DNA from: a virus
Strand: one strand, 5' to 3'
IMG/VR virus record: IMGVR_UViG_3300033553_000827
Span: 1-35,263 of that record
Length of the DNA stretch: 35,263 nucleotides
Positions 28,730 through 34,654 of this stretch are shown here, in pieces. The notes below the pieces were generated by a model. That model was given only the letters and a program-made list of their open reading frames with translations, searched no databases and had not been told where the DNA came from. How positions within the stretch are numbered: the stretch's first letter is position 1; each line of letters opens with the position of its first letter. The position numbers and the translations under genes were made by a program.

Positions 28730-28936
28730 TCATGCTGCGTCCTCTTGATTTTCTGGAATGGGATGCGCGGCCATGTAGCTGCGCACTTTATCCGTGGTCC
28801 GATGGGTTGCGGTCCCGCCCGCTTCCCATTTTGCCCAGGTCGATCCGTTCCCCGCGTCTGCACGCTGGATGATCGTGGTGGGGAGAACACCTATCGCAGC
28901 CGCATAGGCCCGAACTTCTGCCATGAATTGTTCCAT
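28730..28936 (-). CDS. Cro-like small HTH protein
   Basis: A 68-residue protein, the first gene transcribed leftward from the repressor-operator region. VRAYAAAIGVLPTTIIQRAD (~8-27) fits a helix-turn-helix of the Cro/XRE type, and NGSTWAKWEAGGTATHRTTD continues it. It faces the CI-like gene across 86 bases that hold two operator copies, the classical cro position. No strong ribosome binding site is visible. Cro function is inferred from position and size. Confidence 0.7.
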   Translation of the reverse strand: MEQFMAEVRAYAAAIGVLPTTIIQRADAGNGSTWAKWEAGGTATHRTTDKVRSYMAAHPIPENQEDAA

Positions 28937-28947
28937 AGGGTCCGATG

Positions 28948-28986
28948 TAGGTATTTAGTTCTACCTAAGTCAAGAACTTTGTACCT
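28948..28986. promoter_or_regulatory. Operator pair between cI-like and cro-like genes, leftward early promoter
   Basis: Two copies of AGGTA-N4-GTTCT: AGGTATTTAGTTCT at 28949-28962 (plus orientation, within the dyad TAGGTATTTAGTTCTACCTA, 28948-28967) and AGAACTTTGTACCT at 28973-28986 (minus orientation). On the minus strand a TTGACT (28973-28968) lies between the two cores and can serve as the -35 box of the leftward promoter, so bound repressor would cover it. The same motif occurs at 30351-30392. Confidence 0.8.
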
Positions 28987-29022
28987 ATGGAGAGAGATTC
29001 CTATTGTCGGCATAAATAAGGA

Positions 29023-29385
29023 ATGAATGATCTTGGCATCACTGACCCATTCTTGAAACGTTTGCGGCGCCGGATCGACGAAGATCCGACGTTGACCGAG
29101 GCTGGATTAGCTAAAAAAGCTGGGCTTTCGGATAGCGCAATCCGCCAATATTTCTCAAAACCCAACAGAACGCCAAGGGTTGAAAATGCACGCAAGATCT
29201 GCGCCGCACTTGGCACGACTCTCGAAGAGTTCATGTCCGAGGCTCAAACCCCAGAAGAAAAAGAGATTGTTCGCCTAACACTTGCGCTACCCGATCACTT
29301 GCGCCGCCAGCTTCTAAGCTATGCAAAAGGGCTTGTTGATGCGTCGGAGAGCGTGTCTCGACCAGATGATGCAACAGATCAATGA
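29023..29385 (+). CDS. CI-like prophage repressor (short, XRE type)
   Basis: A 120-residue protein. Residues ~8-70 form an XRE helix-turn-helix (AGLAKKAGLSDSAIRQYFSK, then PRVENARKICAALGTTLEEF). The C-terminal ~45 residues are helical (EKEIVRLTLALPDHLRRQLL) and too short for the S24 self-cleavage domain, so induction would not follow the lambda RecA-cleavage route; an anti-repressor or another mechanism is needed. It is divergent from the Cro-like gene and next to operators. AAGGA directly abuts the ATG, so translation may be leaderless or weak. Confidence 0.85.
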   Translation: MNDLGITDPFLKRLRRRIDEDPTLTEAGLAKKAGLSDSAIRQYFSKPNRTPRVENARKICAALGTTLEEFMSEAQTPEEKEIVRLTLALPDHLRRQLLSYAKGLVDASESVSRPDDATDQ

Positions 29386-29468
29386 TTTCCTTGTCCAGCA
29401 TAATCCACCCCTCACCTTAGAGAACAAAACCGGAACAAAACCGCAATACAACTGAAAGTAGGATTATT

Positions 29469-29660
29469 ATGTCAGATAATGACAAGTCGAAACGTAATTT
29501 ACCCCCATCGCCCAAGTACGAGCAGCGCAGCGCGCAACCGATGCGCGTATCGCCCATTCAATCACCGCAACGCATCGTCACCGGCGGCCAACAGCCTTTG
29601 CGAGACGTGCAGACAGGTCAGACCACTTCCCCGAAACCCAAAAAGCCGAAGGAAGATTAG
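29469..29660 (+). CDS. Proline-rich small protein (convergent accessory pair)
   Basis: A 63-residue, Pro/Lys/Gln-rich, probably disordered protein (RNLPPSPKYEQRSAQ; VTGGQQPLRD; SPKPKKPKED). AAGTAGGA lies about 6 bases before the ATG. Its last 83 bases overlap the 3' end of the convergent membrane protein gene. I recall similar short proline-rich proteins encoded beside membrane proteins in prophages and mobile islands, but cannot name the family. It lies between cI and the rightward operon, a usual site of lysogenic accessory genes, so expression in the lysogen is plausible. Confidence 0.55.
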   Translation: MSDNDKSKRNLPPSPKYEQRSAQPMRVSPIQSPQRIVTGGQQPLRDVQTGQTTSPKPKKPKED

Positions 29661-30270
29661 GATCGACGCGCACTTCGATCCGCTTGATTTCTTCTTTTGA
29701 AATATAGGTCACGAGCAAACCGTATTCCGCTGAAAAAATATCCGTTCGCACCAGTTCCTTACCGGTAGGCGATACCTCATCCGTAACTGCCATTAGAACA
29801 TCACCTGAAGGGCCTAGTGAAAGCTTTGACATCGAAGGCTTGCTGATTTCAGGGGCCAAGTCTGGGTCAAGATGGAGTTCGCGCCCGTCTTTTAGGTAGA
29901 CCCTCACTTCCGTGGCCTCGTGATCATCCATCGCTGCACAAAGTGTGTCCCACGCCGAGGCTTGGCCATCTTCCTTGTGCACGCCTAGTGCCTTCATGGC
30001 CCCGTACCACCAGCCCCTGTAGACGCTGCGCCAGCCGACCCCGAGAACAAGAGGCACCATTACAGCCGCGCCGAATTGGACCGCCAATCCCCACCCGCCC
30101 GCCAGCTCAAAAAACATCAGCGATATACCGCTGAATATCCCCGTGATTATGATAGCATCCTGCGCCCGGTGATTGTGCCGCAACCCGGCATAGGAAGCAG
30201 CATAGGCAGCGAAGCCCGCTGCAATCGAGATCTGAATTTGTAGCGGCAGTGCAAGTAGATCTGGTGACAT
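29578..30270 (-). CDS. Three-span membrane protein with cytoplasmic domain (accessory, possible exclusion factor)
   Basis: A 230-residue protein, ribosome binding site AAAGGA 6 bases upstream. Three hydrophobic segments lie at about residues 12-30, 38-58 and 60-80. A beta-rich soluble domain follows (ATEVRVYLKDGRELHLDPDL, ELVRTDIFSAEYGLLVTYIS). It resembles DUF6338-type membrane proteins in layout. It faces a proline-rich small gene tail to tail and starts next to operator sites at 30351-30392. Membrane proteins here in prophages often block superinfection; this is inference from position and topology. Confidence 0.6.
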   Translation of the reverse strand: MSPDLLALPLQIQISIAAGFAAYAASYAGLRHNHRAQDAIIITGIFSGISLMFFELAGGWGLAVQFGAAVMVPLVLGVGWRSVYRGWWYGAMKALGVHKEDGQASAWDTLCAAMDDHEATEVRVYLKDGRELHLDPDLAPEISKPSMSKLSLGPSGDVLMAVTDEVSPTGKELVRTDIFSAEYGLLVTYISKEEIKRIEVRVDPNLPSAFWVSGKWSDLSARLAKAVGRR

Positions 30271-30350
30271 TGGGTATCCTTTGAGATCAGCCTAGCCGAC
30301 AATTATGGCGAGGACAGCCCCACGGATAACACAATCGACACAATGCAAAT

Positions 30351-30392
30351 AGGTATTAAGTTCTATTTTAGTTGACATAGGTATTTTGTTCT
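30351..30392 (+). promoter_or_regulatory. Operator pair and rightward early promoter
   Basis: AGGTATTAAGTTCT (30351-30364) and AGGTATTTTGTTCT (30379-30392), both in plus orientation, 28 bases apart, match the operators at 28949 and 28973. A consensus -35 TTGACA (30372-30377) lies immediately before the second copy, which would occupy the promoter spacer; the -10 is unclear (near 30392-30400). The next gene (30425) has an excellent ribosome binding site, AAAGGAGG. The repressor probably shuts this operon in the lysogen. Confidence 0.8.
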
Positions 30393-30424
30393 AATACCGA
30401 TAGCCTCACCTAAAGGAGGCTGAC

Positions 30425-30688
30425 ATGCAAACACCCATCGACAAAGCAAAACACGTCGTCACCCACCCGCAGCACTTCGCGCGGGTTCCTGCGGTGCTGG
30501 CGATCAACTGGGAACGGCTTAAGAACGCACGCGGCCAGACGGTCGATTACAATCGTATCGGCCCACCCGCCTACGTGATCGGCCCCGAATGCCCCGGCAT
30601 CGCCGCCGCCCGCATGTCTCGCATCCCCGCCAAAGTCCGCGAGATCGCCAGAGCAAAGGGCTATGACATGCCGCCGAGTGCCGCATGA
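30425..30688 (+). CDS. Early phage protein of unknown function
   Basis: An 87-residue basic protein, first gene of the rightward operon, with AAAGGAGG 5 bases before the ATG. Sequence features include RVPAVLAINWERLKNARGQT and GPPAYVIGPECPGIAAARMS. No domain is recognised. Small early genes at this location in other phages often modify host functions or regulate recombination, but nothing here shows which. The stop overlaps the next start. Confidence 0.65.
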   Translation: MQTPIDKAKHVVTHPQHFARVPAVLAINWERLKNARGQTVDYNRIGPPAYVIGPECPGIAAARMSRIPAKVREIARAKGYDMPPSAA

Positions 30689-31014
30689 TGCACGAACGCC
30701 TCGCCACCTTTGTTTCGGGCCTCGACAAGATCGATGCCGAGGACACAGAAACGCTGAAAGACGCGTTCATGAACGAAGTGATCGAGAACGGCGGGACATA
30801 CGATCCACCGGACGGCGCGGGACGCTCCTATTTTGAGATCAGCCTGCACGATGTGACCGCCACCGGCGCATCCGAACTGCTGGCCATCCGCAATTGGCGC
30901 ATCGCCGCCACCGCACGACTGCTCAACCCCGACGGCCGCGATGTCGAGGCTGATGGTTTCATTACCATGCACCCGCCCTGCGACCTGCTGACAGACACGG
31001 GGGTCAGCACATGA
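30685..31014 (+). CDS. Early phage protein of unknown function
   Basis: A 109-residue, acidic protein whose ATG overlaps the previous stop codon. It contains YFEISLHDVTATGASELLAI and a C-terminal ADGFITMHPPCDLLTD. I do not recognise it. The acidic character beside a basic partner suggests they might interact, but this is speculation from charge. It overlaps the next gene by 4 bases. Confidence 0.6.
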   Translation: MMHERLATFVSGLDKIDAEDTETLKDAFMNEVIENGGTYDPPDGAGRSYFEISLHDVTATGASELLAIRNWRIAATARLLNPDGRDVEADGFITMHPPCDLLTDTGVST

Positions 31015-31193
31015 AAACCGTTGCCCAACTCTCCGCGACCGAAATCAGAGACGCATTGCGCGAATACGTAGAACGTAAAACAGGCGGCAAGGTCATCCAG
31101 AATGGCGTTCTTATCAGTGCGCGGCGCGCCGATGGAAACGACCAGCGCGAGCGCGTCGAACTGACCACAAAGATCACCTACGAGACCAGCTAG
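31011..31193 (+). CDS. Small early protein of unknown function
   Basis: A 60-residue protein, ATG overlapping the previous stop (ATGA). It reads like a small alpha/beta protein: an N-terminal helix (SATEIRDALREYVERKTGGK), then two strands (VIQNGVLISARR; RVELTTKITYET). No family is recognised. It is the last gene before the tandem hairpins at 31208-31271. Confidence 0.6.
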   Translation: MKTVAQLSATEIRDALREYVERKTGGKVIQNGVLISARRADGNDQRERVELTTKITYETS

Positions 31194-33321: not shown

Positions 33322-33453
33322 ATGTCGAAGAAAAGCATGGCCGTGCCGCGCCAGCCCACGAGCGCGCCGGTCGAGCGTGAGAACAGTGAGGTGCAGGCTT
33401 TTATCTTTTCACACACAAGGATGGAGATAGCTTATGATCACTCAACCGCTTAA
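33322..33453 (+). CDS. Possible 43-residue protein upstream of the RelA/SpoT gene
   Basis: The ATG at 33322 has a good ribosome binding site (GGGAGAA, 6 bases). The frame ends 20 bases inside the RelA/SpoT gene, so it could be translationally linked to it. It begins MSKKSMAVPRQPTSAPVERE and has VQAFIFSHTRMEIAYD. No family is recognised. If real, a small partner such as an antitoxin or regulator of the next gene is one possibility; it is only a candidate. Confidence 0.4.
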   Translation: MSKKSMAVPRQPTSAPVERENSEVQAFIFSHTRMEIAYDHSTA

Positions 33454-34654
33454 TCTCGCGGCAATCCAAAAAAATTGCACTGAGGTATTTGATGTGTCCG
33501 ACTTCCCGCGCCTTGAGTTTTCAAAGAAAGACGTTGTCCGCGCAGGCAGCTCACTCAAAGGGCGCATCCTGTGGACATCAGAGAACGAAGCAGAAATTCT
33601 TCGGGTTTTTCAGATCGCAAACAGCTGGCGTGCATCCCATGCATTTCCAATGCACAGAATGCGGGCTGAGCTTCATGGCCGCATGAGTGCGTTGAAGATC
33701 AGAGGGCTGACCGCCGCACGCCTAAAGCAAATGACCTCAATTCGGGGAAAACTAATCCGGATTAGCAGCAACCTTAGACAGTTGCAGGATCTTGGTGGCT
33801 GCCGAGCTGTCGTGCCCACCATAGCGGAAGCTAAAGTTTTAGCCGCTGAGATCGGTGAGAAATATCCACACTATTTGAAGCGTGAAGACGCATACATGGA
33901 TTCGCCACGGCCGAGCGGTTATCGGAGTCACCATCTGGTGTTTGCATTTACACCCCGCAATATCCACGAAACAGAGTACGAAGGTCGATTGATAGAAATT
34001 CAGATACGTAGTCGACTTCAGCATTCATGGGCGACAGCTGTCGAGGCTGTAGGTCTTTATCGTGGAGAAAACTTAAAGGCTGGTTACGGCAGCAAAGATT
34101 GGCTCCGCCTGTTTGAACTTATGTCTTTTGAATTTGCCCTGAGTGAAGGATGTGAATTTGCACAAGATGGGTCAAATGAAAGAGTTGCTGAGATTATTGA
34201 TCTAAATAATTCGTTGAATGCAGCGCAAACTCTAGACACGCTTAGTCATGCAGTTCTTGGCCTTGATAGAATTGAGCGTGATCGCAATCACAAGCCAAAA
34301 TATTGCCTGATTACCTATGACCATCAAAACCGAAAAGTTGGGGTAAAATATCTCGATGGTCCTTCAAATATTGGGTCGGCTCTTGAACGCGGTAATGCAA
34401 ATAGCGACGACGAAAATAGATATAGCGCTGTGGTAGTCGAGTTAGACAAAATTGAAAATCTAAAGAGCGCATACCCTAATTACTTTGGAGATGTTCAACT
34501 TTTCAAGTCAGCGCTGTCAGACGTAGTAAGTGGAAAGCCTCCAAGAGAGTATTCCTTACCTCCAATTGAACGTGTGCCACCACCACCCAAGGAGATCCCT
34601 GACGATTCATGGCTTCGATATCCGAACCGTCGCAATCGTCGTTGGGATGAGTAG
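33434..34654 (+). CDS. RelA/SpoT-domain nucleotidyltransferase (alarmone synthetase-like)
   Basis: A 406-residue protein. Residues ~60-205 match the RelA/SpoT synthetase fold: an N-terminal helical lead-in (NSWRASHAFPMHRMRAEL), SIRGKLIR (~102-109), the metal-binding LQDLGGCRAVV (Asp119), YMDSPRPSGYRSHHL (~154-168, nucleotide-binding Tyr/His region) and IEIQIRSRLQHSWA with the conserved Glu188. No HD hydrolase, TGS or ACT domain is present. A C-terminal ~170-residue extension (KPKYCLITYDHQNRKVGVKY; proline-rich ~370-385) is of unknown role. It may make ppGpp/pppApp or pyrophosphorylate tRNA, as toxic small alarmone synthetases do. The gene is distinctly AT-richer than its neighbours, indicating transfer. 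GGAG lies 8 bases upstream. Confidence 0.88.
   Translation: MITQPLNLAAIQKNCTEVFDVSDFPRLEFSKKDVVRAGSSLKGRILWTSENEAEILRVFQIANSWRASHAFPMHRMRAELHGRMSALKIRGLTAARLKQMTSIRGKLIRISSNLRQLQDLGGCRAVVPTIAEAKVLAAEIGEKYPHYLKREDAYMDSPRPSGYRSHHLVFAFTPRNIHETEYEGRLIEIQIRSRLQHSWATAVEAVGLYRGENLKAGYGSKDWLRLFELMSFEFALSEGCEFAQDGSNERVAEIIDLNNSLNAAQTLDTLSHAVLGLDRIERDRNHKPKYCLITYDHQNRKVGVKYLDGPSNIGSALERGNANSDDENRYSAVVVELDKIENLKSAYPNYFGDVQLFKSALSDVVSGKPPREYSLPPIERVPPPPKEIPDDSWLRYPNRRNRRWDE

Follow-up and report, generated by a model that had tools for sequence, protein, structure and literature searches.

The window, by which we mean the whole stretch of 35,263 nucleotides analysed here, contains a prophage. Its structural and packaging genes are encoded leftward of 28.9 kb, small early genes and a DUF2303-type gene (phrog_210, name from annotated relatives) are encoded rightward, and an integrase-like ORF was seen by eye beyond the window. 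Between two pairs of predicted operators are situated the gene of a 120-residue repressor and one cargo gene. The immunity region of phage lambda has the order OL-rexBA-cI-OR-cro; we take the left pair to correspond to lambda OR, the right pair to lambda OL and the cargo gene to occupy the position of rexAB. From left to right the region comprises:

28730-28936, minus strand: first gene of the leftward operon, 68 residues, predicted four-helix HTH-like protein in the cro position
28944-28973, minus strand: putative leftward promoter, TTGACT-18-TACATC, with a -35 box kept in relatives
28948-28963, plus strand: predicted left operator O1, TAGGTATTTAGTTCTA, between the -35 and -10 boxes of the leftward promoter
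28972-28987, minus strand: predicted left operator O2, TAGGTACAAAGTTCTT, overlapping the -35 boxes of the leftward and repressor promoters
28979-29007, plus strand: putative repressor promoter, TTGTAC-17-TATTGT
29023-29385, plus strand: predicted repressor, 120 residues, with an XRE/HTH_3 domain and a predicted two-helix C-terminal hairpin
29231-29401, minus strand: antisense ORF (aORF), 56 residues, a candidate gene for induction or for an antirepressor, which overlaps the repressor gene in its 3' part
29422-29436, minus strand: LexA-type box GTTC-N7-GTTC, 37 nt past the repressor stop and, on the aORF strand, 20 bp ahead of the aORF start
29578-30270, minus strand: cargo gene at the place of rexAB, with a membrane-protein-like product (phrog_12870, and a weak match to DUF6338)
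30350-30365, plus strand: predicted right operator OR1, TAGGTATTAAGTTCTA
30372-30400, plus strand: putative rightward promoter, TTGACA-17-TACCGA
30378-30393, plus strand: predicted right operator OR2, TAGGTATTTTGTTCTA, within the spacer of the rightward promoter
30425-31193, plus strand: the three small genes that open the rightward operon

An earlier note on this DNA had confined the motif AGGTA-N4-GTTCT to the two divergent promoter regions, and a motif scan of the window bears this out. There are exactly four exact copies, at 28949-28962 (plus), 28973-28986 (minus), 30351-30364 (plus) and 30379-30392 (plus), where about 0.07 would be expected by arithmetic in 35 kb. With up to two mismatches allowed, 22 places are found in the window against 11.97 expected, and those with no mismatch are the four sites only. 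The whole genome (3.88 Mb, 94.6% complete) contains one further exact copy (C21:1719), which is devoid of the flanking TAG/CTA letters common to the prophage sites, and six matches to the reversed control pattern. The operator unit is best read as 16 bp, TAG-N10-CTA, which refines the 14-bp motif; TAGGTA-N4-GTTCTA with at most one mismatch occurs at seven places in the genome, four of them being the prophage sites, and its control at 23. In the second left site (28972-28987) one end is degenerate, AAG standing for TAG, because the -35 box overlaps it there.

Each pair of operators flanks a TTGAC -35 box. The boxes that the same note had described as adjoining a copy of the motif at each promoter are present as TTGACT at 28968-28973 (minus strand) and TTGACA at 30372-30377. 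The three putative promoters were assigned by reading the sequence; their -10 boxes are poor, and a consensus promoter scan lists none of them. Two operators, not three, are found per promoter in the window. A third 16-bp site, situated 17-50 bp before the repressor start, has been observed in the related loci L026-L031, L035, L037, L039 and L046 and is absent from the window.

The leftward early region contains a cysteine-dioxygenase-like phage gene (27504-28115, minus strand; phrog_4786, E-value 1.6e-47), and the rightward early operon encodes a RelA/SpoT-domain protein (33434-34654, plus strand; PF04607 with 62.9 bits, phrog_4773) that could be an alarmone-type toxin or a defence gene. The cargo in the rexAB position differs between the prophages L012-L046, often with N-terminal hydrophobic stretches as judged by eye; that of L015 and L022 belongs to one family and that of L025 to DUF7946. 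This position is a candidate hot spot of superinfection exclusion. The cargo was also considered as a set of defence genes and this assignment was given up, PADLOC having returned one weak match (ZorA) among 10 proteins.

The same layout is conserved in related prophages, which are from Rhodobacteraceae or Rhodobacterales wherever their titles name an organism. In all 34 repressor loci that were fetched, one site adjoins the repressor on the left and a pair follows on the right at 0.45-1.7 kb. Close relatives, with repressors 96% and 90% identical, retain all four sites at a different distance between the pairs, and more distant relatives have the same frame with other inner bases. When the inner bases are disregarded and up to 2 of the 12 letters may deviate, the pattern (TAG-N10-CTA) N6-9 TTGAC N (TAG-N10-CTA) identifies the right pair once in each of the 34 loci and in none of the 34 reversed controls. 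The leftward -35 box reads GTCAA in the plus-strand direction (in L041, GTAAA), and the left operator begins 20-22 bp ahead of it. L043, L044 and L045 have sites and distances identical to those of L029, L030 and L031 and were therefore taken as the same loci, which leaves 31 distinct loci; L007, L009, L010 and L011, being shorter copies of L038, L034, L035 and L037, had been dropped before the count.

Held-out material was obtained in two ways. A profile search of 394 family genomes gave five with matches, three of them new; the full layout with an operator of its own is found in two of these three loci, and the third (L085, a weak repressor match with an internal stop) has neither the layout nor the aORF. 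Two geometry scans, covering gaps of 6 and 8 only, gave 26 stretches, of which the 14 from new records were examined. Six of these viral contigs, selected from geometry alone, hold the repressor, and in all six the left site is at most three mismatches from the right. No repressor was found in the stored piece of L052, nor among the geometry-scan stretches L056, L059, L061, L066, L067 and L068, these last six being likely chance or unrelated matches. The remaining one, L069, is a prophage of another kind that encodes a longer repressor of another type and has a matching left site, TAGGGAAAATACCCTA (L069:8509), with TAGGGTAAATACCCTA and TAGGGTAAAATCCCTA on the right (L069:10272-10317). The TAG-N10-CTA / TTGAC frame is therefore wider than this repressor family.

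A tblastn search with the repressor against 50,697 phage records gave no match. The isolated phages RcapNL and Pyei1 (8-kb stretches) and LagS-V1 were tried as carriers and rejected, the operator geometry being absent from them. Paracoccus phage vB_PyeM_Pyei1 encodes a longer CI-like repressor and has palindromes of its own, TGGGGGAATTCCCC / TGGGGGAGTTCCCC, arranged in pairs at L072:1070-1113 and L072:3138-3179, about 2 kb apart, of which the pair on the repressor side flanks TTGAC; these are apparently the operators of that phage.

The HTH_3 domain of the repressor (PF01381) is recognised with 35.8 bits against a cut-off of 23. Matches in Pfam and PHROGs cover the HTH part only and list no S24 peptidase family, so that with no peptidase domain in the protein RecA-induced self-cleavage is not expected. 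The AlphaFold model (mean pLDDT 80) consists of the five helices of an XRE domain followed by a C-terminal helix pair. The nearest folds are those of restriction-modification controller proteins, a prophage Lp1 protein, SinR and P22 c2, the match to SinR (1b0n) being weak (Foldseek E-value 0.048; VIA Z 7.5, rmsd 5.5, 99 aligned).

The earlier note had overlooked the aORF. Its frame, antisense to the 3' part of the repressor gene, is present with 55-63 codons in 39 of 39 loci, namely the 31 distinct loci and eight later ones, with L008 and L085 left out. Neither an aORF nor a LexA-type box was found in those two, of which L008 is distant (32% identity), and in L047, which is counted, the N-terminal part of the aORF is out of the family frame. 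The distance from the repressor stop to the aORF start, which is preceded by a Shine-Dalgarno-like stretch, is 16 nt in 28 of the 31 loci, 19 nt in two and 28 nt in one, and the frame ends in the conserved GTTLEEFMS segment of the repressor or just beyond. Among the 28 aligned loci, which were chosen from the 31 for a start at 16 nt, the start triplet is always ATG, GTG or TTG (CA followed by T, A or C on the repressor strand) while its neighbours drift. Under a strict definition 29 of the 31 loci have an uninterrupted frame as far as the usual stop; the two that fail are presumably L022 and L023, with ORFs one codon shorter. Permutation gives an average probability of 0.36 per locus that the frame is open, and the same antisense frame over the upstream part of the repressor gene is open in one locus of 31.

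Synonymous constraint in the repressor gene is confined to the overlap. Between the two main groups of repressors the ratio of observed to expected synonymous identity is 0.91-1.17 in codons 9-70 and 1.41-2.44 in codons 72-104, which form the overlap; the best-conserved codons, 55-70, give 0.97-1.09. At the amino-acid level the repressors of the two groups are less alike across the overlap (identity 0.377) than in the stretches preceding it (0.518 and 0.778), so that a recent exchange of this part does not explain the synonymous constraint. Identity in the antisense frame is 0.261 in the overlap as against 0.145 after synonymous permutation (z 16.9); control stretches are in excess as well (z 5.4 and 2.2), and part of the excess in antisense identity is therefore due to shared ancestry. 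The aORF proteins gave no match in Pfam or PHROGs below an E-value of 0.09 and none to solved structures below 0.07, and a search of phages with one aORF sequence gave no relatives. Searches of the open-access literature gave no earlier description of a conserved gene lying antisense inside the repressor gene of a phage, or of these operators.

The box beside the aORF start conforms to GTTC-N7-GTTC, the LexA motif of alpha-proteobacteria (PMC3091678), and the same motif precedes lexA and recA in this genome. Four occur in the window where 0.91 are expected. The motif is not rare genome-wide (111 places, control 236), and its position rather than its presence is therefore the evidence. Between the repressor and the right pair the count over the loci is 13 for the N7 spacing and 0-2 for each of nine other spacings. 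A box lies beside the aORF in 19 of the 39 loci and in none of the other 20. Many of the loci lacking it (L014-L026, L032-L039) have, about 30-45 nt past the stop, a stretch resembling CCACCC, which reads GGGTGG on the aORF strand. No minus-strand terminator is listed between 28.65 kb and the LexA-type box.

The box could instead serve the cargo gene on its rightward side and not the aORF, a reading that we think unlikely. Its orientation relative to the aORF is opposite to that of the boxes at lexA and recA, and when read rightward it is GAAC-N7-GAAC, as found before these two host genes; the window also has a small rightward ORF at 29469. The distance from the box to the aORF start is almost fixed, however, whereas the ORFs on the rightward side vary, L012, L029, L041 and L046 having none or a doubtful one, and in L063 and L083 the box itself has the other orientation. 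The rightward ORF of the window (29469-29660), considered as a LexA-linked gene, was dropped, the related loci being without it. It has further to be asked if the aORF is a protein gene at all, or if the 3' constraint stems from RNA structure or from an antisense RNA. The 20 loci that are devoid of the box would fit with such a reading, but the restriction of the start to three initiation triplets, the Shine-Dalgarno-like stretch before it, the presence of the frame in every locus counted and the coincidence of wobble constraint with the second codon position of the antisense frame make this quite improbable.

The two pairs of sites have also been suggested to act through a DNA loop, as OL and OR of lambda do. 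Paired sites about 1.4 kb apart with one common reader would suit such an arrangement; the distance between left and right pair nevertheless ranges over 555-1763 bp with no preferred helical phase (Rayleigh R 0.007, 31 loci), which gives no support to a phased form of the looping suggested in the earlier note, and the repressor is without a large C-terminal domain for higher oligomers. The spacing is weak evidence against looping, because loops above 0.5 kb need little phasing; we regard a loop as improbable to a high degree.

The inner ten bases of the operators vary between prophages and agree within each of them. Over the 31 loci the left site matches its own right pair at 8.10 of 10 inner bases and those of other loci at 5.01, the own value being reached in 0 of 10,000 permutations, and for 19 loci the own pair comes first among the 31 right pairs, the window not being among them since two close relatives score higher there. 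The distance between operators is correlated with that between repressor HTH domains (Mantel r=0.43, 0 of 5000 permutations as high) and not with that between repressor C-termini (-0.012, 2761 of 5000). A blind scan of protein residues against operator positions 4-6, over the 26 loci with distinct HTH domains, places residues 36, 39 and 42 at the top of the variable repressor positions, with no permutation as high in 6 of 228 tests. In the AlphaFold model, where the recognition helix spans residues 39-45, these three residues lie on the same face of it. As the permutation tests do not model phylogeny, the strength of the co-variation is overstated to some degree, and much of the weight of the argument is carried by direct contrasts. 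L034, L035 and L038, all prophages of Albibacillus kandeliae J95, have one leftward protein in common over its first 60 residues as aligned, but each has an operator and a repressor HTH domain of its own; a fourth prophage of that strain, L037, has a fourth type. Identical or near-identical HTH domains with somewhat differing operators also occur, at operator distances of 0.32 (L028-L029), 0.30 (L015-L025) and 0.47 (L025-L037).

Since the inner bases track the repressor HTH and neither its C-terminus nor the leftward protein, the 29023 protein is almost certainly the reader. It is highly probable, to judge from these comparisons, that a temperate Rhodobacterales phage has its operators in these four sites and that this repressor reads them, and the earlier suggestion that a single CI-like protein encoded at 29023 serves both early promoters thus gains support from the co-variation of its HTH with the operators. 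The series of operators and HTH domains looks like one of heteroimmunity types. That the leftward 68-residue protein is the main reader, or a true Cro reading the same bases, is most unlikely: it starts right beside O1, is predicted to have a small HTH fold, occupies the lambda cro position and, without correction, varies in step with the operators (r 0.214 between distances, 4 of 5000), but given the repressor HTH the correlation falls to 0.069 (partial Mantel, 819 of 5000), none of its residues passes the scan (0 of 147) and one and the same protein accompanies different operators in L034, L035 and L038. It has been rejected as the determinant of specificity on the partial Mantel and residue tests, and could contact the constant TAG/CTA letters.

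From the computed features, which are the sites, their geometry and co-variation, the aORF, the synonymous constraint and the boxes, we infer repressor binding and repression, translation of the aORF, LexA control and antirepressor action in the following manner. A dimer of the 120-residue repressor would bind each 16-bp TAG-N10-CTA site, residues 36, 39 and 42 would read the inner bases, and the invariant Arg41 may contact the constant operator ends. Bound at O1/O2 and OR1/OR2, it would cover the -35 to -10 regions of both early promoters and keep the prophage silent; O2 overlaps the promoter of the repressor itself, and autoregulation is therefore likely. Related prophages would keep the frame and swap the inner bases together with the repressor HTH, giving rise to many immunity types. 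As the repressor has no self-cutting domain, it has to be released in some other way. DNA damage would induce a LexA-controlled leftward transcript from beside the aORF start, which would run antisense through the repressor gene and continue into the leftward lytic operon. This transcript would yield the 56-residue aORF protein, which may bind the repressor, and the antagonism could be exerted by antisense transcription, by protein contact or by both. A different trigger would be required where no LexA-type box is present.

We consider the balance to be even for the proposal as a whole, in which the aORF is the release switch of a non-cleavable repressor and lies antisense in its gene: an SOS transcript would silence the repressor, make the antirepressor and enter the lytic operon, and the HTH half of the repressor would be free to change with the operators towards new immunity types. 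If true, the repressor gene would encode its own antagonist on the opposite strand. With about thirty natural pairs of repressor and operator set in a constant frame, an amino-acid/base code of XRE proteins becomes directly testable. Such a code would allow immunity groups to be predicted from sequence, and immunity types would explain the four related prophages in Albibacillus kandeliae J95.

Repression of two promoters together with immunity types is a feature of phage lambda. The lambda-like logic proposed in the earlier note holds in so far as one repressor, situated between two groups of operators, would serve two early promoters (34 of 34 loci by the layout of sites), and also in that cargo is placed between the repressor and the distal operators. 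It does not hold for the repressor itself, which is without the cleavable domain of its lambda counterpart. Lambda further differs in having three sites per region instead of two; in the window the cargo is not cotranscribed with the repressor, the protein in the cro position does not follow the operators, and an antisense ORF is present within the repressor gene.

SinI is a helical antagonist of SinR, which is a short HTH repressor. The present pair is similar in having a short HTH repressor with a helical C-terminal hairpin and a candidate helical antagonist of similar size; the fold match being weak, this is a resemblance only.

Two-promoter repression with immunity types is also already known from Cluster A mycobacteriophages (PMC6550527) and Gifsy phages (PMC3121763). 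In the Cluster A account binding motifs diverge together with repressor specificity, as they do here. That report gives up to 30 stoperator sites genome-wide, in contrast to four exact sites in 35 kb here, and states that the C-terminus also affects specificity, whereas only the HTH tracks the operator in the present family (PMC6550527).

SOS-linked release of non-cleaved repressors by antirepressors is likewise known already (PMC3121763, PMC10432266). The first of these reports describes the non-cleaved repressors GfoR/GtgR of Gifsy phages and their LexA-controlled antirepressors GfoA/GftA. Non-cleaved repressors and heteroimmune operators are common to both systems, and a LexA-linked small release protein is only proposed here; the Gifsy antirepressor gene is described as lying outside the immunity region, unlike the present candidate, which is antisense in the repressor gene (PMC3121763). 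In a Vibrio polylysogen, a small protein without known homologues, encoded by a TF-smORF, inactivates cI, an action proposed for the aORF protein as well; that system is described as SOS-independent, with the smORF adjoining a dedicated activator gene (PMC10432266).

Overlapping ORFs in the repressor region of phages are found likewise in the case of 434 Hex (PMC3564112) and the olg genes of Fc02 (PMC9936078). From the text of these reports that could be consulted, Hex is on the transcript of the repressor itself and olg overlaps upstream of the repressor gene, neither being antisense to the repressor gene as the aORF is (PMC3564112, PMC9936078). Short repressors without a peptidase have been noted in roseophages, with no explanation offered there (PMC7305329), and if the aORF is an induction switch it would suggest a release route for these roseophage repressors also.
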